Positions 37,568 through 61,875 of a DNA stretch of 64,000 nucleotides are shown one piece after another. Numbering within the stretch: position 1 is the first letter of the stretch; every line of letters starts with the position of its first letter. The translations under genes were made by a program, and so were the position numbers. Source of the DNA: a virus. The notes below the pieces were generated by a model that was not told the origin of the DNA, did not search any database, and saw nothing but the letters and a program-made list of their open reading frames with translations. The stretch lies in the IMG/VR virus record IMGVR_UViG_3300042387_001265, positions 16,234 through 80,233 of that record, one strand, 5' to 3'.

Positions 37568-39247
37568 GTGGCGATTAAGCTGTTTGGCTTTACTTTAGGT
37601 TCGAAAGATGTTGTTCAGAAAGAAAAACCTGAACAATCATCTTTCGTTCTTCCTTCCGCTGCACAACTAGATGACGGTGCTGTTACTATTACGCAAAATG
37701 CGTATTATGGCACATACGTAGATTTAGAAGGTTCAGTTCGTAATGAGATAGAACTTATCACTCGTTACCGTGAAATGTCCAATCATCCAGAGTGTCAAAT
37801 GGCAATTGATGAAATCGTCAATGAAGCCATAACACACGATGATAGAGGCAAAGTTGTTGATATTGTTTTAGATAATCTGAAACAACCAGAATCAATTAAG
37901 AAAAAAATTATTGAAGAGTTTGATAATGTCCAAAAGATGTTAAACTTTTCAAACTTAGCCGACGACTTATTTAAACGTTGGTACATTGACGGTCGCATGT
38001 TCTACCATGTGGTAGTTAATGATAAGAATCCAAAAGAAGGTATTCAAGAACTCCGTTATATTGACCCACGTAAAATTCGTAAAGTGCGTGAAGTCAAAAA
38101 AGAAAGAGATCCCAAAACCGGTGCTTTAATTGTCGAATCTGTTGCTGAATATTATGTGTACAATGACCGAGGTACAACAACTCAAACGTTTACTGCAAAC
38201 GTAACTCAAGGTCTTCGTATTGCACCAGAATCCATTATTAATGTTAATTCAGGTTTGATGGATGCAAAGAATACTTTTGTTATTTCATATCTACACAAAG
38301 CAATCAAGCCACTCAATCAGTTACGTATGATTGAAGATGCGATTGTTATCTATCGTATTTCACGTGCGCCAGAACGCCGTATTTTCTACATTGACGTTGG
38401 TAATTTACCAAAAGGTAAAGCCGAACAATATCTCCGTGATATCATGATCAAGTATCGTAACAAAATGGTTTACGATGCCAATACTGGTGAACTGCGTGAT
38501 GAACGTAAACATTTATCGATGTTGGAAGATTTCTGGTTGCCACGTAGAGAAGGTGGTAAAGGAACAGAAATTACTACTTTACCCGCTGGTCAAAATCTTG
38601 GTGAATTAGAAGATGTAAAATATTTCCAAAAGAAACTATTACAATCACTGAACGTTCCATACTCACGCTTAGAATCGCAAGAAGGTGGAATGGCTGGTCT
38701 AGGTCGTTCACAAGAAGTTACACGTGACGAACTAAAATTTGCAAAATTTGTTATTCGTTTACGTAATAAATTTTCACAACTATTTGATGAGGCTTTAAAA
38801 ATTCAATTAGTTTTAAAAGGTATTTGTACTCGTGAAGAATGGGAACAATTCAAAGAAGATATCTATTATGATTTCCGTAAAGATAATAACTTCACTGAAC
38901 TTCGTGAAGCAGAGTTATTGCAGAATAGATTGCAAATGGTAGGTTTAGTTGACCCATATATCGGTCGATATTTTTCTCAACAGTATGTTATGAACAAAGT
39001 TTTAATGATGACTGATGAGGAAATTGAAGCTATGCGAGAGAAAATACAAGAAGAAAAAGAAACGCTACCAGATGATATGCAAGGACCTATAATGCAGCAG
39101 GGCGGAGCTGAAGAACAGCAACCGCAATCTGACCAACCTCCAGTTGACAATACCGTTGAAAATGCCAATGAAACGGAATCATTAACGCCTCAGCTTGATG
39201 ATGAGGTAAACAAGTCAGTAATTAGTATAAATAATAGACGCAAATAA
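37568..39247 (+). CDS. 20: portal vertex protein gp20
   Basis: The product has 559 residues with a GTG start preceded by AAAGGAAAATT. Typical phrases are YYGTYVDLEGSVRNEIELITRYREMS (47-72), HPECQMAIDEIVNEAI (73-88), IDPRKIRKVREV and YIDVGNLPKGKAEQYLRDIM. The C-terminal third has SRLESQEGG and LRLRNKFSQLFDEALK-like segments and an acidic tail. gp20 forms the 12-mer portal and starts head assembly. An upstream terminator separates it from the tail genes, so it needs its own promoter, not clearly seen. Confidence 0.92.
   Translation: MAIKLFGFTLGSKDVVQKEKPEQSSFVLPSAAQLDDGAVTITQNAYYGTYVDLEGSVRNEIELITRYREMSNHPECQMAIDEIVNEAITHDDRGKVVDIVLDNLKQPESIKKKIIEEFDNVQKMLNFSNLADDLFKRWYIDGRMFYHVVVNDKNPKEGIQELRYIDPRKIRKVREVKKERDPKTGALIVESVAEYYVYNDRGTTTQTFTANVTQGLRIAPESIINVNSGLMDAKNTFVISYLHKAIKPLNQLRMIEDAIVIYRISRAPERRIFYIDVGNLPKGKAEQYLRDIMIKYRNKMVYDANTGELRDERKHLSMLEDFWLPRREGGKGTEITTLPAGQNLGELEDVKYFQKKLLQSLNVPYSRLESQEGGMAGLGRSQEVTRDELKFAKFVIRLRNKFSQLFDEALKIQLVLKGICTREEWEQFKEDIYYDFRKDNNFTELREAELLQNRLQMVGLVDPYIGRYFSQQYVMNKVLMMTDEEIEAMREKIQEEKETLPDDMQGPIMQQGGAEEQQPQSDQPPVDNTVENANETESLTPQLDDEVNKSVISINNRRK
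39226..39233 (+). promoter_or_regulatory. late promoter for prohead core genes (TATAAATA)
   Basis: This is an exact match to the T4 late consensus, located inside the last codons of gp20. Start near 39239 gives a leader of about 21 nt with TAGGGAGTTA before the ATG at 39260. Confidence 0.75.
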
Positions 39248-39259
39248 TAGGGAGTTACC

Positions 39260-39610
39260 ATGCAAATCCAAGAAGTTATTAATCACATTGCTGCTGGCGA
39301 TAGCGTGGCAGCAAAAGAAAGCATAGAAAATATTCTATCAGCAAAAGCGTTTGATGCGCTTCAAACTCGTAAACAAGAAATTGCTTCAACTCTTTTTGGT
39401 GGTCAAGAGCAAGAGCAAGAGTATGAAGAGGCGATGGAAGAAGGTATAAAGGGTGCTGCTATCGGTGGCGCATTAGGTTCAGTTGGTGGTCCAGTTGGTG
39501 CTGCTGTTGGTGGTGCATTGGGTCATGTTGCTGGCGAAGGTCTTGCTAGTTTAAGAAAAAGAACAGTTGCAGCAGGAAAAGCTTTTGCTACAAAACCATC
39601 ACGTGATTAA
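39260..39610 (+). CDS. 67: prohead core protein gp67-like with Gly-zipper tail
   Basis: The product has 116 residues. The first 47 (VINHIAAGDSVAAKESIENI, KAFDALQTRKQEIASTLFGG) match the small prohead core protein of cyanophage-type T4 relatives. An acidic, Gln-rich hinge ends AMEEGIK (58-64), close to the gp21 cleavage pattern [LI]xE|[AG]. The tail (65-93) is a Gly zipper, GAAIGGALGSVGGPVGAAVGG, with GxxxG spacing like membrane-inserting or self-packing helices. The core protein part helps shape the prohead. The tail could form a peptide in the mature head; that role is inferred. Confidence 0.75.
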   Translation: MQIQEVINHIAAGDSVAAKESIENILSAKAFDALQTRKQEIASTLFGGQEQEQEYEEAMEEGIKGAAIGGALGSVGGPVGAAVGGALGHVAGEGLASLRKRTVAAGKAFATKPSRD

Positions 39611-39613
39611 TTA

Positions 39614-40285
39614 ATGAAATCATTATTACAATTTAAATGTATTGTTGAAGAAGAAAAGTCCGACTACTCAAAGTTGGACATTCTTGTTCGTGCAGGTTTA
39701 GCAAACAAAGCACAGCTCCAACGTATTCACAAAATAGTGGATAAGATGGGCGAAGAACGTCCAGTGTTCAATAATGCTGATCGTGAAATCATGCGTAATC
39801 TTTTCAATCGTATGGCTGATTTGATTACAAGCAATAAACAAATTTTTACACGTGCAAGACAAGCAGTTAGAGAAGATTTGAACGAAGCACGAAGCGACAG
39901 TGTTGGTAGTGCTTTTCCATTAGTACCGGACCCACCGGTTGTTTTGGTAATCAAACGCAAAGCAGTAAGATTGTATCCAGATGGCACTAGAGTTGCGCTT
40001 TATTGGAGCGACAAACTAAAGAAATATTTTAGCGTTCCATATGGACCAGCCTTAGATTCGACAATTCAAGCTGAGGAATATGTCAGAGAATTTTTAGAGT
40101 CCGATGAAATCGCTTTAAATGATGGTAATAATGTTTCTCTAAACGAACAAACAAAAGAAATGTTTATAGATGTTTATGGGCGTTTAGATGAGCAAAACAA
40201 AGAATATTTTTGGAATCAATTAACAGAATCAGCATCAACATTTGGAAAACTCTATGAATTTTGTAGAACTAATTCTTCAGAATAA
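39614..40285 (+). CDS. prohead core / head-associated protein, gp68 position
   Basis: The product has 223 residues. MKSLLQFKCIVEEEKSDYSK resembles prohead-associated N-termini. The segment LVRAGLANKAQLQRIHKIVDKMG, then NADREIMRNLFNRMADLITSN (55-75) is predicted helical. LNEARSD at 89-95 fits the gp21 site pattern LxE|A, cutting after Glu91. The C-terminal half is a mixed alpha/beta domain (LYPDGTRVALYWSDKLKKYFSVPYG). It lies where T4 has gene 68 and overlaps the next gene by 32 nt. The exact identity is uncertain; head-related function is well supported by the neighbours. Confidence 0.6.
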   Translation: MKSLLQFKCIVEEEKSDYSKLDILVRAGLANKAQLQRIHKIVDKMGEERPVFNNADREIMRNLFNRMADLITSNKQIFTRARQAVREDLNEARSDSVGSAFPLVPDPPVVLVIKRKAVRLYPDGTRVALYWSDKLKKYFSVPYGPALDSTIQAEEYVREFLESDEIALNDGNNVSLNEQTKEMFIDVYGRLDEQNKEYFWNQLTESASTFGKLYEFCRTNSSE

Positions 40286-40715
40286 ATTAGACGAAGCCAA
40301 AGAACTCATCTATGAAAAATTGGATGAGATAGCTTCTATTAAATTAGAAGAGATAAAGCCATTCGTTGTTGATGAGATGTTTGAAGAGATTGAAGTTGAC
40401 GAAGAAGTATTAGAAGAGGCTGCAAAGAAACGAAATCCAAATGTTGTTAAAATGGGTAGAGTTCAAAAGATTCGTCGCCGTATTCGTCGCAATAAAAAAG
40501 GTAAGATTATCGTACAGAAAAATGTACGCAAATCAGCACTAAAAGGATATCGTTTGTCTGGCAATACAGTAAAGCGTATACCAGCAACAGTAAGATTACG
40601 TAAAGCACGTTTATTGAAACGTGCATGGAAAACAACAAGAAGAGCAAAACTTAGACGCACATTGTTAAAGAGAAAGATGTCAATGCGCCGTCGTAAATCT
40701 ATGGGACTAAGATAA
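40254..40715 (+). CDS. bipartite head protein: acidic core part, basic DNA-binding-like tail
   Basis: The product has 153 residues. I chose the ATG at 40254 over a TTG at 40242; it overlaps the previous gene by 32 nt. Residues 1-55 are an acidic helical prohead-core segment (FVELILQNKLDEAKELIY), with 19 Asp/Glu. LEEAA at 53-57 matches the gp21 pattern LxE|A. The remaining 98 residues have 41 Lys/Arg and no acidic residue, with phrases such as KIRRRIRRNKKGK and KRKMSMRRRKSMGLR. Proteins of this type lie before gp21 in cyanophage relatives. The reading is that the acidic part guides it into the prohead and the protease frees a basic peptide that binds DNA. This last point is inferred from motif and charge. 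Confidence 0.75.
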   Translation: MNFVELILQNKLDEAKELIYEKLDEIASIKLEEIKPFVVDEMFEEIEVDEEVLEEAAKKRNPNVVKMGRVQKIRRRIRRNKKGKIIVQKNVRKSALKGYRLSGNTVKRIPATVRLRKARLLKRAWKTTRRAKLRRTLLKRKMSMRRRKSMGLR

Positions 40716-40716
40716 A

Positions 40717-41079
40717 ATGCCATTTGAAATAACTAACAGTTTAAGAGGAACATCAGTCATTCGTGGTGTCGATGCGGGTACTTACACAATCACACTGAAT
40801 GATTTAAGAGCCAATACCACAATCGAAAGTGTGTCGGCCGCAGATATTAAACGAATCATGTGGTCAACAAACGGTAGCATTACAGTTGTTAGAAACGGTG
40901 TTCCACAACTTGCTTTGCATACAGGTGGTGTTATGGATTTTGCAGACTTTGCACACTCACTTGCAAATAATAATACTCAAAGCATTGTTGTAACAATTAA
41001 TACAGGCGGTTCTTTTATTATGGAAGTTTCTAAAGTTGCGACATACAATGTTGACCCATATACAGGAGCATCCATCTAA
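40717..41079 (+). CDS. small beta-rich head-associated protein
   Basis: The product has 120 residues, one base after the previous stop. It is all-beta in pattern: SVIRGVDAGTYTITLNDL, then DIKRIMWSTNGSITVVRNGV (44-63), LHTGGVMDFADFAHSLANNNTQSIVVT. I recognise similar proteins before gp21 in cyanophage relatives, usually listed as virion proteins. It may decorate the capsid or be internal; nothing more is visible. It overlaps gp21 by one base. Confidence 0.65.
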   Translation: MPFEITNSLRGTSVIRGVDAGTYTITLNDLRANTTIESVSAADIKRIMWSTNGSITVVRNGVPQLALHTGGVMDFADFAHSLANNNTQSIVVTINTGGSFIMEVSKVATYNVDPYTGASI

Positions 41080-41729
41080 TGAAACTAATTAAAGAACATA
41101 TTGAAGATGTAAGATATCTTACCGAAAAAACAGAAGACGGTAAAAAACAAATGTACATTGAAGGTATTTTTCTTGTCGGTGACACAGTTAACCGAAACAA
41201 TCGCATGTACGAAATGAAAACATTACGTAATGAAGTCGCACGATACACAAAAGAACTTATTGAATCTAATCGTGCGCTTGGCGAACTAGGACATCCTGAT
41301 ACACCATCACTCAATCTTGAACGTGTATCTCATAAGATTGTTAGCCTTAAAGAAGACGGAAATACTTTTGTAGGTAAAGCACTTATTATGGAAACACCTT
41401 ATGGACAAATAGCCAAGAATTTAATAGATTCTGGTGTAAATCTGGGTGTTTCTTCACGTGCCCTAGGCTCAGTTGTAATGACTAAAGAGGGTTACAATTT
41501 AGTCCAAGATGATTTGCGTCTTGCAACAGCAGCAGACATCGTTGCTGACCCTTCAGCACCAGGAGCTTTTGTTCAAGGTATTATGGAGAACAAAGAGTGG
41601 ATGTATGTTGAAGGTCGTTTTGTTGAGTCACATATTGACTACGCTAAAAAACAGATTCGTCAAGCATCACGCAAAGAAATTGAGACTGTTGGATTACAAC
41701 TTTTCGAAAATTTTCTACGAAAACTTTAA
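41079..41729 (+). CDS. 21: prohead maturation protease gp21
   Basis: The product has 216 residues, similar to T4 (212). The protease signature is present: GELGHP with His72, GVSSRALG with the nucleophile Ser at 125 or 126, and the DPSAP segment near 162-166. GDTVNRNNRMYEMKTL near 34-49 is typical. It cleaves scaffold, core and capsid proteins after Glu in [LI]xE patterns. Candidate targets occur in five neighbouring products. Confidence 0.92.
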   Translation: MKLIKEHIEDVRYLTEKTEDGKKQMYIEGIFLVGDTVNRNNRMYEMKTLRNEVARYTKELIESNRALGELGHPDTPSLNLERVSHKIVSLKEDGNTFVGKALIMETPYGQIAKNLIDSGVNLGVSSRALGSVVMTKEGYNLVQDDLRLATAADIVADPSAPGAFVQGIMENKEWMYVEGRFVESHIDYAKKQIRQASRKEIETVGLQLFENFLRKL

Positions 41730-41763: not shown

Positions 41764-42867
41764 ATGGCAACAAACAAACTAATGGAAGCAGCGGCAGAAA
41801 TTCTTGCAGCAAGCAAGTCTTCGGCTCCTGGTATGCCAATGCCTAAGTTACAGCACGACACTCCAGGCAATTCTGGAACACCTGAAGACTTGGGCGGTCC
41901 TACACCACAAAACAACAAACCAAATGATGATTCTAACAAGCTTTCAAACAAAGCTAAAGACTCAGCTGGTTCAAATAAATCTTCATTGAACATGAAGCCT
42001 TCACACGCTTCTGCCGATACACAACTTGGTGACAAGAACATGCGTCCGGGTTCAGGTACCAACATGATGCCAGAAGATGTTGAAGAAGATGTAGAAATTT
42101 TTGATGATAATTCAGCAGTTGAAGAAATGAAAGCTCAGATGAAAGAAGATATTGATTCTCTTTTTGCTGATGACAAAAACATTTCTGAAGACTTTAAAGC
42201 TAAAGCTGTTACTATTTTTGAAGCACGTGTATTTGACCGTGTTGCTCAAATTCAAGAGCAATTGGAATCAGAATATGCTGGTCAATTGGTAGAAGCTGTT
42301 GAAACAATCAAAGCAGAACTAACAGAAAAAGTCGATGACTATCTCAACTACGTAGTTGAGCAGTGGATGGAAGAAAATCAAATTGCTGTTGAAAGCGGTT
42401 TACGTTCCGAAATTACAGAAGACTTTATTGCCGGTCTACGCAATCTGTTTGCTGAAAACTATATCAATGTTCCAGAAGACAAAGTTGACCTTGTAGAAGA
42501 ACTTGCTTCTAAGGTTGAAGAACTGGAAGAAAAATTGAACGAAGAAATTGAAACTAATATTCAGTATAAAAAACAACTTACTGAAGCAGTCAAAGTACAA
42601 CTAGTAAATGAAGTGTGTGAAGGTCTCACAGCAACTCAAGTTGAAAAGATTAAAGCACTCGCAGAGAGTGTAGAATTTTCCACAGAGGAAGAATTCGTAG
42701 AAAAACTTGAAACAATTCGTGAGAACTATTTCCCATCAGGCATGAAAAAAGCCGATGCAGCACAGCTTCACGAAACAGTTGATGACACTGATGGTAACGA
42801 AAAGAAGATGTCTTCTGATCCTTACGTTGCATCAGTCATGCAAGCAATTTCTAAAACAAAAATTTAA
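41764..42867 (+). CDS. 22: prohead scaffold protein gp22
   Basis: The product has 367 residues, longer than the T4 scaffold (269). The N-terminus has LMEAAAEILA (6-15), which includes an LxE|A site. A Gly/Pro/Asn-rich stretch (20-115) follows. From 120 on it is strongly acidic and helical, with coiled-coil segments such as VDLVEELASKVEELEEKLNEEIET. The C-terminus SSDPYVASVMQAISKTKI is typical of gp22. It forms the core on which gp23 assembles and is degraded by gp21. Confidence 0.88.
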   Translation: MATNKLMEAAAEILAASKSSAPGMPMPKLQHDTPGNSGTPEDLGGPTPQNNKPNDDSNKLSNKAKDSAGSNKSSLNMKPSHASADTQLGDKNMRPGSGTNMMPEDVEEDVEIFDDNSAVEEMKAQMKEDIDSLFADDKNISEDFKAKAVTIFEARVFDRVAQIQEQLESEYAGQLVEAVETIKAELTEKVDDYLNYVVEQWMEENQIAVESGLRSEITEDFIAGLRNLFAENYINVPEDKVDLVEELASKVEELEEKLNEEIETNIQYKKQLTEAVKVQLVNEVCEGLTATQVEKIKALAESVEFSTEEEFVEKLETIRENYFPSGMKKADAAQLHETVDDTDGNEKKMSSDPYVASVMQAISKTKI

Positions 42868-42890: not shown

Positions 42891-44234
42891 ATGTATTTGT
42901 CTGAAAATTTACAAAACAAATGGGATGGTGTTCTAAATCATCCAGACTTGCCAGCGATTGCTGACCCATATCGTAAGGCAGTTACAGCAGTTATCCTGGA
43001 AAATCAGGCTACTGAAATGATCAAAGAATCTGGTATGCTGCAAGAGACCGGTTCACCAACTAACTTTGCTGGTACAGGCGGTTTTGGTGGCGGTGCTGCT
43101 GCTGCAGGTCCAGTTGCTGGTTTCGATCCAATTCTTATCAGCTTAGTTCGTCGTTCATTACCTAATCTGATTGCGTATGACGTTTGCGGCGTTCAGCCAA
43201 TGACAGGTCCTACAGGTCTGATTTTTGCAATGCGTACTAAGTATGCATCACAAGGTGGTGGAGAAGCATTCTACAACGAAGCTAACACAGCATTCTCTGG
43301 TGCTAACGGCGCTATCGTTGCTTCTTCAATGACAATTGCTGGTAACACAACAGATTATCTGTTTACTGGTAACGCTGCTCCTACAGGCGCAATGACTACT
43401 GGTTCTGCTGAAGCATTAGGCGACGGTGCAGCTGGTAACACATTCCAAGAAATGGCATTCTCAATTGAGAAAGTTACTGTTACAGCACGTACACGTGCAT
43501 TGAAAGCAGAATACTCAATGGAACTTGCACAAGACTTGAAAGCAGTTCATGGTCTAGACGCAGAAACAGAATTGGCTAATATCCTTTCTGCTGAAATTCT
43601 TGCTGAAATCAACCGTGAAGTTATCCGTACAATCTACAAAGTTGCTAAACCAGGCTGTCAAGCTGGTACAACAACTCGTGGTGCATTCAACCTTGACACA
43701 GATTCAAACGGTCGTTGGATGGTTGAAAAGATTAAAGGTCTTGCATTCCAGATTGAACGTGAAGCAAACCAAATTGCTAAGACAACTCGTCGTGGTAAAG
43801 GTAACATCGTTATCTGTTCTTCAGACGTAGCTTCTGCTCTAGCGATGTCAGGTATTCTTGATTACAACTCAGCACTTGCTGGTCAAGTTAATCTAACAGT
43901 TGATGATACTGGTAATACTTTTGCTGGTACAATCTTCGGTCGTATCAAAGTTTACATTGACCCATACTTCCCAACAGGCTCAACATCTGAGTTTGCGGTT
44001 GTAGGTTACAAGGGTACTAACGCATACGATGCTGGTATGTTCTACTGCCCATACGTTCCTCTACAAATGGTTCGTGCAGTTGATACAGGTACATTCCAGC
44101 CAAAGATTGGCTTCAAGACTCGTTACGGTCTAGTTGCTAACCCATTTGCTGAAGGTACTGACCAGGGTCTAGGTCGTTTGGATTCACAGTCAAACAACTA
44201 CTACCGTGGTTTCCGTATTGCAAACTTGATGTAA
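42891..44234 (+). CDS. 23: major capsid protein gp23
   Basis: The product has 447 residues, somewhat shorter than T4 (521). KWDGVLNHPDLPAI with YRKAVTAVILENQ (10-40) and the phrases DPILISLVRRSLPNLIAYDVCGVQPMTGPTGLIFAMR are diagnostic. EMAFSIEKVTVTARTRALKAEYSMELAQDLKAVHGLDAE follows. LQETGSP at 50-56 is a plausible gp21 cut after Glu52, equivalent to the T4 cut at 65, though the next residue is Thr rather than Ala or Gly. AAGGAG precedes the start. A strong terminator follows the gene. Confidence 0.95.
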   Translation: MYLSENLQNKWDGVLNHPDLPAIADPYRKAVTAVILENQATEMIKESGMLQETGSPTNFAGTGGFGGGAAAAGPVAGFDPILISLVRRSLPNLIAYDVCGVQPMTGPTGLIFAMRTKYASQGGGEAFYNEANTAFSGANGAIVASSMTIAGNTTDYLFTGNAAPTGAMTTGSAEALGDGAAGNTFQEMAFSIEKVTVTARTRALKAEYSMELAQDLKAVHGLDAETELANILSAEILAEINREVIRTIYKVAKPGCQAGTTTRGAFNLDTDSNGRWMVEKIKGLAFQIEREANQIAKTTRRGKGNIVICSSDVASALAMSGILDYNSALAGQVNLTVDDTGNTFAGTIFGRIKVYIDPYFPTGSTSEFAVVGYKGTNAYDAGMFYCPYVPLQMVRAVDTGTFQPKIGFKTRYGLVANPFAEGTDQGLGRLDSQSNNYYRGFRIANLM

Positions 44235-59520: not shown

Positions 59521-61875
59521 ATGAACAACATTCAAAATCAAAAGTCTGGTCTTGCCAAACTGATGGCAACCGAGAATCTCACTGTTCAACATGCCAAAAC
59601 TTATACGGCATCATTTGATCCTAAAAATCGTATTCTAACATGTCCTATCTGGACAGAAATGTCTGGCGATCTTTATGACTTGCTAATGGGTCATGAAGTT
59701 GGTCACGCTATCGATACACCTGCCGATGGTTGGCATGGTGCTGTTCATGACCGCGGTCGTAGTTACAAGGGCTTTCTCAATGTGGTTGAAGATGCACGAA
59801 TTGAGAAGCGCCAAAAACGCCGTTATCCTGGTCTACGTAAATCTTTTATCAACGGCTTCAGTGAACTAATGAACCGTGACTTCTTTGGTCTAAAGGGTCG
59901 TGATATCAATTCAATGTCATTCATTGACCGACTGAACTTATACACAAAGTCCAGTTATACAATGGACATTCAGTTCAATGACATTGAAAAAGATTTTGTT
60001 GAACGTGTTCAGGCTTGTGAATCTTTTGAAGAAGCCTTGAAATTGACGGATGAAATTTGGGACTATTCAAAAGAAGAACAACAACAAACCGAAATGCCTC
60101 AAGATGATTTTGGCTATGAGTTTGATGAAGATGGTGAAGAATCTGAAGTCGGTTCTGGTGACGGTGATGCCGAGACTGATGGCAAAGGTAAACAAAAAGC
60201 AAAAACAAAAGCGAACGGTCAAGATGGTGACCAAGATTCTGATGATTCATCTGACGGTGATGGTGAAGAATCCGATGAAGATGGTGAAGGTACAAAATCC
60301 GCAAAGTCTGACGGTGAATCTGAAGATGATGAATCTTTCGAAGAATCTGAACAGGGTAATGCTATCAATCGTTATAAAGAATCGAAAAGCCTTTCAGAGG
60401 GCTTAGATGACTTTGAACCTCGGTGTGAAACTGATGAAAACTTTCGTGCAAATGAATCTAGTCTTATTGCAAAAAATTCACGTGAATATGTTTATGTAAA
60501 CATTCCTGCGCCGAATCTGAAAAACATTGTCACGCCAGCAAAACGTGTTCAGGAACTTTTGACTGAAGATTTTTCCAAACAACGGCAAGATTATCAGCAA
60601 GTTGCCAATAATTTGTATGCAGATTTTCGTAAGAAAAATGAACGGTATATCTCTCTTCTGGCAAAAGAATTTGAGATGCGTAAGGCTGCACAACGGTTTG
60701 CAAAAGCAAAAACTGCGTCCACTGGTGATATTGATATCAGCCGTGTATTCAAATATCAGATTGATGATAATATCTTCAAAAAAATCATGCGTGTTCCTAA
60801 GGGTAAGTCGCACGGTTTGGTTCTGTTACTTGATAAGTCTGGTTCAATGTCCGAAAATCTTACGGCATCATTAGAACAAATTCTGATTCTGGCATTGTTC
60901 TGCCGTAAAGTAAGCATTCCGTTCAGTGCATATGGTTTTGGTAATGCAGAGAATGTCCGACACATGGATTTTCCTTCGGACCCATCGTTTGATGAGTACG
61001 GTAATGTAATTCTGAAAAGCTACAGCACTGGTTGCTTTTCTGAAAAAGAAGGTGACTTGCAACTTTCTAGTGTGTACCTGCGTGAGATGATTAATTCGAA
61101 AATGAGTAATTCTGAATTTTCGAATGCCGTGAAAAACATTCTGTGCGTTATGGATGCGTTTCAATACAGATATTCGTATGGTAAATTCTTTCAGCGTCCT
61201 AAGAGTGAAAGTTTATCAAACACACCATTGACTGAGGCTTTGATTGCTTCTCAGCCAGTCATCAAAGAATTTCGCAAATTGAACAATCTTGATATTGTCA
61301 ATCTGTGTGTGGTTCACGATGGCGATGCTGATACAACAACTAGCTATCATAATAATGGCACAAGAAATTATTATCGTGTGGGTTATCAGAATGTTTTTCT
61401 GTGCGACAAAAAAGAAAAACTGCAATTTGAATTGTCTGATGATGAGAACGGTGCCAGAATTGCGGTATCAAAGTGGTTGACTAAAACCACTGGTGCTAAA
61501 ATAATTGGTTTCTATCTTGCACCAGATTCACAAGTTAGAAATGTTATTCGCCGTCGGTTTGTGAATGATGAAGTTCTTGCTGCCGATGATAGTAACAAAA
61601 AATATACTTGGGAATGGAAGTGTGCTACTAATGAAGTTTATAGCAAGTATGCAAAAATCTTCCGTAAAAATAAGTATCTTGAATCCAAAAATGATGGCTA
61701 CGAATCATTTTTCATCATTGCTGGTGGTAATGATTTGAATGTTGGTGATGACACGTTTGATGCACCCGATAAAGTTACCGCAACTAGTCTGTCAAAAGCA
61801 TTTGGTAAGTTTACCAAAAATCGTCAAGTGAATCGGGTTCTGGTTTCACGATTCATTGGTATGATTGCTGCTTGA
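59521..61875 (+). CDS. cobT: CobT-like protein: HExxH domain plus VWA domain
   Basis: The product has 784 residues. Residues 1-180 form a metallopeptidase-like domain with HEVGH at 58-62 and NVVEDARIEKR at 87-97, where a Glu could be the third ligand. A very acidic linker (about 195-285) follows. From about 430 a VWA domain has an intact metal site DKSGSMS (438-444). In T4-like phages of aquatic hosts this protein, paired with CobS, is called CobT or porphyrin biosynthesis protein. With the AAA+ gene downstream it could form a MoxR/CobS-VWA chaperone-type complex. True cobalt chelation lacks support, since no CobN subunit is seen. Confidence 0.8.
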   Translation: MNNIQNQKSGLAKLMATENLTVQHAKTYTASFDPKNRILTCPIWTEMSGDLYDLLMGHEVGHAIDTPADGWHGAVHDRGRSYKGFLNVVEDARIEKRQKRRYPGLRKSFINGFSELMNRDFFGLKGRDINSMSFIDRLNLYTKSSYTMDIQFNDIEKDFVERVQACESFEEALKLTDEIWDYSKEEQQQTEMPQDDFGYEFDEDGEESEVGSGDGDAETDGKGKQKAKTKANGQDGDQDSDDSSDGDGEESDEDGEGTKSAKSDGESEDDESFEESEQGNAINRYKESKSLSEGLDDFEPRCETDENFRANESSLIAKNSREYVYVNIPAPNLKNIVTPAKRVQELLTEDFSKQRQDYQQVANNLYADFRKKNERYISLLAKEFEMRKAAQRFAKAKTASTGDIDISRVFKYQIDDNIFKKIMRVPKGKSHGLVLLLDKSGSMSENLTASLEQILILALFCRKVSIPFSAYGFGNAENVRHMDFPSDPSFDEYGNVILKSYSTGCFSEKEGDLQLSSVYLREMINSKMSNSEFSNAVKNILCVMDAFQYRYSYGKFFQRPKSESLSNTPLTEALIASQPVIKEFRKLNNLDIVNLCVVHDGDADTTTSYHNNGTRNYYRVGYQNVFLCDKKEKLQFELSDDENGARIAVSKWLTKTTGAKIIGFYLAPDSQVRNVIRRRFVNDEVLAADDSNKKYTWEWKCATNEVYSKYAKIFRKNKYLESKNDGYESFFIIAGGNDLNVGDDTFDAPDKVTATSLSKAFGKFTKNRQVNRVLVSRFIGMIAA

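Follow-up and report, generated by a model that had tools for sequence, protein, structure and literature searches.

A divergent gp68-type protein, probably of the prohead core, with a putative gp21 cleavage site at its acid/base junction in an uncultured T4-like phage group

We found that a 153-residue protein of an uncultured T4-like phage, encoded at positions 40254..40715 (plus strand; ATG start, stop codon included) of the window (the whole stretch of 64,000 nucleotides analysed here, taken from an 80-kb IMG/VR virus contig), belongs by sequence comparison to the gp68 class of head proteins, as a member that is both new and divergent. Its profile relationships indicate homology to T4 gp68 and to the gp68 proteins of the Ackermannviridae annotated as prohead core or head scaffolding proteins. 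We consider it probable that this protein is the phage's own gp68, a minor prohead-core (scaffold) protein whose basic domain acts in core assembly and is freed by the gp21 protease at an LEE↓A site (the arrow marks the scissile bond). The first-pass annotation of this DNA did not recognize the relationship to gp68, by which the protein joins a class already known. The assignment names gp68, among the least understood of the T4 head proteins, in a large uncultured T4-like group in which databases had left it unnamed, and it points to one architecture common to distant families, in which a core-directed part that varies is followed by a fixed protease site and then by a basic domain that is conserved.

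The gene is found in a T4-like head cluster on the plus strand, in the order gp20, gp67-like gene, 223-aa gene, gp68-type gene, 120-aa gene, gp21, gp22 and gp23, and so lies between the portal/gp67 genes and gp21 with two extra genes intervening. The portal protein gp20 (37568..39247) is followed, as in T4, by a gp67-like protein (39260..39610), which combines an N-terminal core-protein part (phrog_2088, 2e-08; phrog_1064, prohead, 1.4e-06) with a C-terminal glycine-zipper part. Some relatives have the glycine-zipper part, others have something different in its place and many lack it, as though whatever stands behind the core segment of this protein were exchangeable. The 223-aa protein (39614..40285) is a conserved neighbour that belongs to no database family and has no match among named phages. 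It possesses a conserved internal LxE↓A motif of its own (DLNE↓ARSD), situated in a linker whose length varies and which separates an N-terminal part that begins with MKSLLQFK..VEEEK from a conserved domain (VLVIKRKAVRLYPDGTRVALYWSDKL). The conservation of this motif within a variable linker suggests a second gp21-processed head protein, and the 223-aa protein is probably another gp21 substrate. The end of its gene overlaps the start of the gp68-type gene by 32 bases. The 120-aa protein (40717..41079) has no assigned function and a single, distant phage match, in Synechococcus phage BUCT-ZZ01, where the matching gene occupies the same position just before gp21; in many T4-like phages a different small protein stands at this place. 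The prohead protease gp21 (41079..41729; PHROG 207, E=1.7e-74; Pfam Peptidase_S77, E=1.7e-35) comes next, so that the gene is indeed located two genes before gp21, as had been annotated, and it is followed by the gp22 scaffold (41764..42867; net charge -39) and the major capsid protein gp23 (42891..44234).

We then investigated whether the reading frame is shared and maintained in related phages. Scanning viral contigs turned up 486 relatives, 80 of which were kept. In 80 of 80 related loci the gene comes directly after the same 223-aa neighbour, and it occupies the gp20-to-gp21 interval in every locus whose flanks are long enough. The dN/dS values are 0.11-0.22 for the whole protein and 0.10-0.25 for the basic part. 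In the segregation of acidic from basic residues, the ORF ranks first among the 154 ORFs of the window, and none of 20,000 residue shuffles equals its score. The second strongest acid/base split in the window belongs to a 784-aa ORF at 59521-61875, with a net charge of -37 followed by +14. The gene is real: it is syntenic, evolves under purifying selection and has hundreds of relatives from the environment; a chance or misread frame is ruled out by the synteny, the dN/dS values and the shuffles.

The acidic N-terminal part (residues 1-55; 40254..40418) contains 19 D/E and 5 K/R residues (pI 4.05) and is predicted to be helical (helices 3-8 and 12-42). The basic C-terminal domain (residues 56-153; 40419..40712) contains 41 K/R and no D/E residues (net charge +41, pI 12.0, 11.7 kDa). 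The first-pass annotation had described this composition and the LEE↓AA join exactly to the residue. The N-terminal part is weakly similar to the gp67-type N-termini of distant T4-like phages, and an HMM of this part reached neither the window's own gp67-like protein nor T4 gp67. The basic domain, 67-100% identical within the close family, is also conserved across phage families, and its conserved positions include the uncharged residues Q88, S94, G98, S143 and G151. AlphaFold predicts N-terminal helices and, in the C-terminal part, an ordered domain in which strands precede a helix, while the LEE↓A site falls in a low-confidence linker (residues 43-66). The mean pLDDT is 78 (90 for the C-terminal domain alone). 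Two models share the strands-then-helix arrangement but differ in detail (pTM 0.37 and 0.51), and we claim no fold from them. Neither model has a Foldseek match in the PDB at E<=0.001, and a search of solved structures returned a single chance-level ribosomal match (E=0.47). The significant matches in the BFVD library of viral structures are a phage protein without a name and one named 'Prohead core protein' (E=2e-4). The conserved uncharged residues together with the predicted strands and helix point to a specific interface in the basic domain and not to a tail of protamine type, and searches of Pfam, NCBIfam and PDB sequences gave no match to a histone, HU/IHF or protamine family.

The relationship to gp68 was established through profiles and intermediate sequences. 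Direct scans of Pfam, PHROGs and NCBIfam gave no match to a gp68 model, tblastn against named phages found no match for the protein, a scan of genome contigs with the basic part found no relatives, and scans with the gp68 and gp21 of Vibrio phage D524 found no loci. Distant environmental T4-like contigs were gathered by a scan anchored on gp21. A basic-domain protein stands upstream of gp21 in 12 of these 80 gp21-anchored loci, nearly always within a few bases of it; many T4-like phages thus seem to do without such a protein, although some of the flanks are short. The family HMM recognizes 11 of the 12 bridging proteins at E=8e-23 to 2e-07, with values of 8e-23 to 4e-10 for bridging proteins encoded directly upstream of gp21, compared with 0.075 for the best shuffled or reversed decoy. 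One bridging protein (L251) matches PHROG 3503 ('head scaffolding protein') over its full length at 2e-06. PHROG 3503 is the Ackermannviridae protein encoded beside gp21 and annotated as gp68 in Vibrio phage YC, and our basic-domain HMM matches the annotated gp68 of that phage at 5e-06. In profile-to-profile comparisons, each against the best of 60 column-shuffled controls, the family profile (A3) scores 53.4 against the Ackermannviridae type (control 18.1) and 41.8 against the T4 type (control 21.5), the part aligned to the T4-type profile being the C-terminal 35 columns, while the Ackermannviridae and T4 types score 54.9 against each other (control 19.5). The homology of the 153-aa protein to both gp68 types, as indicated by these intermediates and profiles, concerns a region of biased composition, and it coincides with the gp68 layout of an acidic N-terminal and a basic C-terminal part. 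In three of the proteins upstream of gp21 (L220, L223 and L261), the basic domain ends proteins of 300-370 residues that have long, differing N-terminal parts and an LDE↓A before the domain.

We then investigated the junction between the two parts. The putative gp21 site comprises codons 53-56 (40410..40421; LEE↓A within EEVLEE↓AAKKRN) and lies in the low-confidence, presumably flexible linker. T4 gp21 cleaves after L/I-x-E (PMC9026906), and LEE↓A has the form of a gp21 maturation site, L/I-x-E followed by a small residue. Within the same phage group, the N-terminal part of gp23 has a conserved [LI]xE↓[TAV] at residues 50-53, near the expected propeptide cut position (about residue 52), and this candidate propeptide site agrees with an L/I-x-E specificity in these phages. 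We compared 47 distinct close relatives, and in 47 of 47 Ala comes directly after the final L/I-x-E that precedes the basic part (35 LEEA, 7 LDEA and 5 IDEA), even though the adjoining upstream stretch differs in length by 4-8 residues. The gp21-type site that had been annotated at the acid/base junction of a head-core gene is therefore a constant feature of the close family. Past the junction, 43 of the 47 have no acidic residue, and the other four have one Glu outside an L/I-x-E context. As the basic domain contains no Glu here, it offers no L/I-x-E for further cutting. Among 23 diverse sequences, E55 belongs to the 13 columns that are invariant. Among 26 divergent members, which are not independent, so that the comparison with shuffles is descriptive, 21 show [LIVM]xE precisely where the charge curve has its minimum (mean 4.7 and maximum 12 in 3,000 shuffles), and 16 also have A, G or S after it (mean 0.85, maximum 6). 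The charge-minimum algorithm misplaced L220, L223 and L254, although their sequences contain LDE↓A, LDE↓A and IVE↓A, respectively. Upstream of the cut, the parts have from about 12 to about 290 residues and for the most part cannot be aligned, which leaves the cut site and the basic domain as the constant elements.

Could the motif nevertheless be unused? The protein might act uncut and be expelled or degraded whole, with LEE↓A a by-product of a Leu/Glu-rich acidic linker. An LDE↓A at residues 12-15 is as conserved as the junction site, so that motif conservation alone is no proof of cutting, and Table 1 of PMC9026906 lists T4 gp68 as 'not cleaved'. What counts, as we read the alignments, is the placement of the site at the exact charge junction and its persistence through linker insertions and deletions. 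Its junction-specific recurrence across unalignable N-terminal parts, far above the shuffles, together with the invariance of E55, makes an unused site unlikely. Release of the basic part by gp21 at the junction is likely and well supported by comparison, because the junction site is strongly selected and is encountered again in relatives that are very distant.

In T4, gp68 belongs to the prohead core, where about 240 copies of it are present (PMC9958956), and Keller et al. (1984), as cited in PMC9697503, connect it with head size. By analogy, the N-terminal part of the 153-aa protein would place it in the core, where the basic domain, judging from charge, might bind acidic partners such as gp22 (T4 gp67, too, is acidic, with a net charge of -25) and contribute to the assembly of the core and to its size ahead of shell closure. 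The activated protease would then cut LEE↓A as well as sites in the N-terminal part, uncoupling the basic domain and dissolving the core so that DNA can enter, while the Glu-free basic domain would escape further cutting. Following the T4 precedent, most of it would leave the head, and a residue may stay with the DNA. With copy numbers borrowed from T4, 240 basic domains of +41 each carry about 9,840 positive charges. This would balance about 44% of the net negative charge that 576 gp22 molecules of this phage have together, and about 2.9% of the phosphates in a genome of 169 kb.

This bears on the proposal, made in the first-pass annotation, that the basic part is a released, histone-like head peptide. 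Release has gained support from the comparison of sequences; retention in the head as a DNA-condensing peptide of 98 residues, binding the incoming DNA, has not, and we regard it as rather doubtful. Such a function would suit a domain with 41 K/R, no acidic residue and no cleavable site of its own. In T4, further basic internal proteins (IPs) stay in the head, where their lysines contact DNA phosphates (PMC3012670), and prepackaged IPs speed packaging (PMC7697877). Traces of gp68-type proteins have also been detected in virions: gp154 of the Ackermannviridae-like phage Sajous1, which we infer to be a gp68 homolog from its place beside the protease, with two spectra (PMC10892097), and the gp68-type gp165 of Morganella phage MP1 with one peptide (PMC5384007). 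However, the authors of both papers caution that proteins detected at low counts may be contaminants. T4 gp68 is present in 240 copies per prohead but in 0 copies per mature head (PMC9026906, Table 1); while that table marks it as not cleaved, the text of the same paper says that it is cleaved into fragments, and other reviews likewise describe it as cut, with fragments that mostly exit (PMC7411985; PMC9958956). A charge of some 3% of the DNA phosphate and the conserved residues and predicted strands and helix, which favour a specific interface, also speak against condensation. A core-assembly (scaffold-binding) role is likelier. On the other hand, undercounting in virion proteomes is possible, since trypsin would destroy so basic a domain. 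One could go further and see the gp68-type basic domain as a conserved, protease-released, DNA-contacting internal head protein, undercounted because trypsin turns it into very small peptides, that primes empty heads for packaging across several phage families and has, ahead of a single fixed cut site, targeting parts that can be exchanged freely; we offer this as speculation with little likelihood of being right. An old question becomes testable with this family, namely whether gp68 is cut at its acid/base junction and where its basic half goes.

The basic domain might instead be cargo that, like T4 IPI-III, is injected and acts early in infection. The logic would be similar (an N-terminal targeting part, an LxE cut and a basic mature part), the upstream parts are swapped freely, and the short N-termini of some relatives, for example MLSFKEFIAESEVDE↓A (L251), resemble capsid targeting sequences in kind. 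IPs are usually fast-evolving and strain-specific. The basic domain, unlike usual IPs, is 67-100% identical within the family and conserved across phage families. T4 gp68 is also absent from the listed ejected proteins (PMC7411985), and ejected cargo is in our view very unlikely, leaving a core-assembly protein with a releasable basic domain as the preferred reading.

Among named systems, T4 gp68 (prohead core protein; PHROG 1049, 'head scaffolding protein') is similar in its place in the gene cluster and in its layout, with 67 residues containing 16 D/E, LNE↓F and then 74 residues containing 26 K/R, and the C-terminal ends are alike (KRKKALKRRKALGLS vs KRKMSMRRRKSMGLR). The N-terminal halves, on the other hand, cannot be aligned, the basic half has three acidic residues in T4 gp68 and none here, the P1' residue is Phe instead of Ala, and T4 lacks the two genes that are added here between gp20/gp67 and gp21. 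The gp68-type proteins of the Ackermannviridae (PHROG 3503; LHE287, Vibrio phage YC) share the basic domain with G-Y/F-K-x-S and the terminal KAMxxRxxxGL, and likewise adjoin gp21, with LDE↓A or MDE↓Q at the junction. They differ in a very short acidic part (about 19 residues) that resembles a targeting peptide, and in a Cys pair in the basic domain of some members. T4 gp67 and the gp67-like proteins of cyanophages (PHROG 1064, 683) are weakly similar in the N-terminal helical part but are acidic throughout and lack a basic domain, and the present phage has its separate gp67-like gene (39260-39610). The comparison with T4 IPI-IPIII is one of layout, not of sequence: from these prohead-core proteins, too, gp21 removes an N-terminal part at L/I-x-E to leave a basic mature part (PMC9026906), but their targeting part has only about 10-19 residues, and they are retained and ejected.
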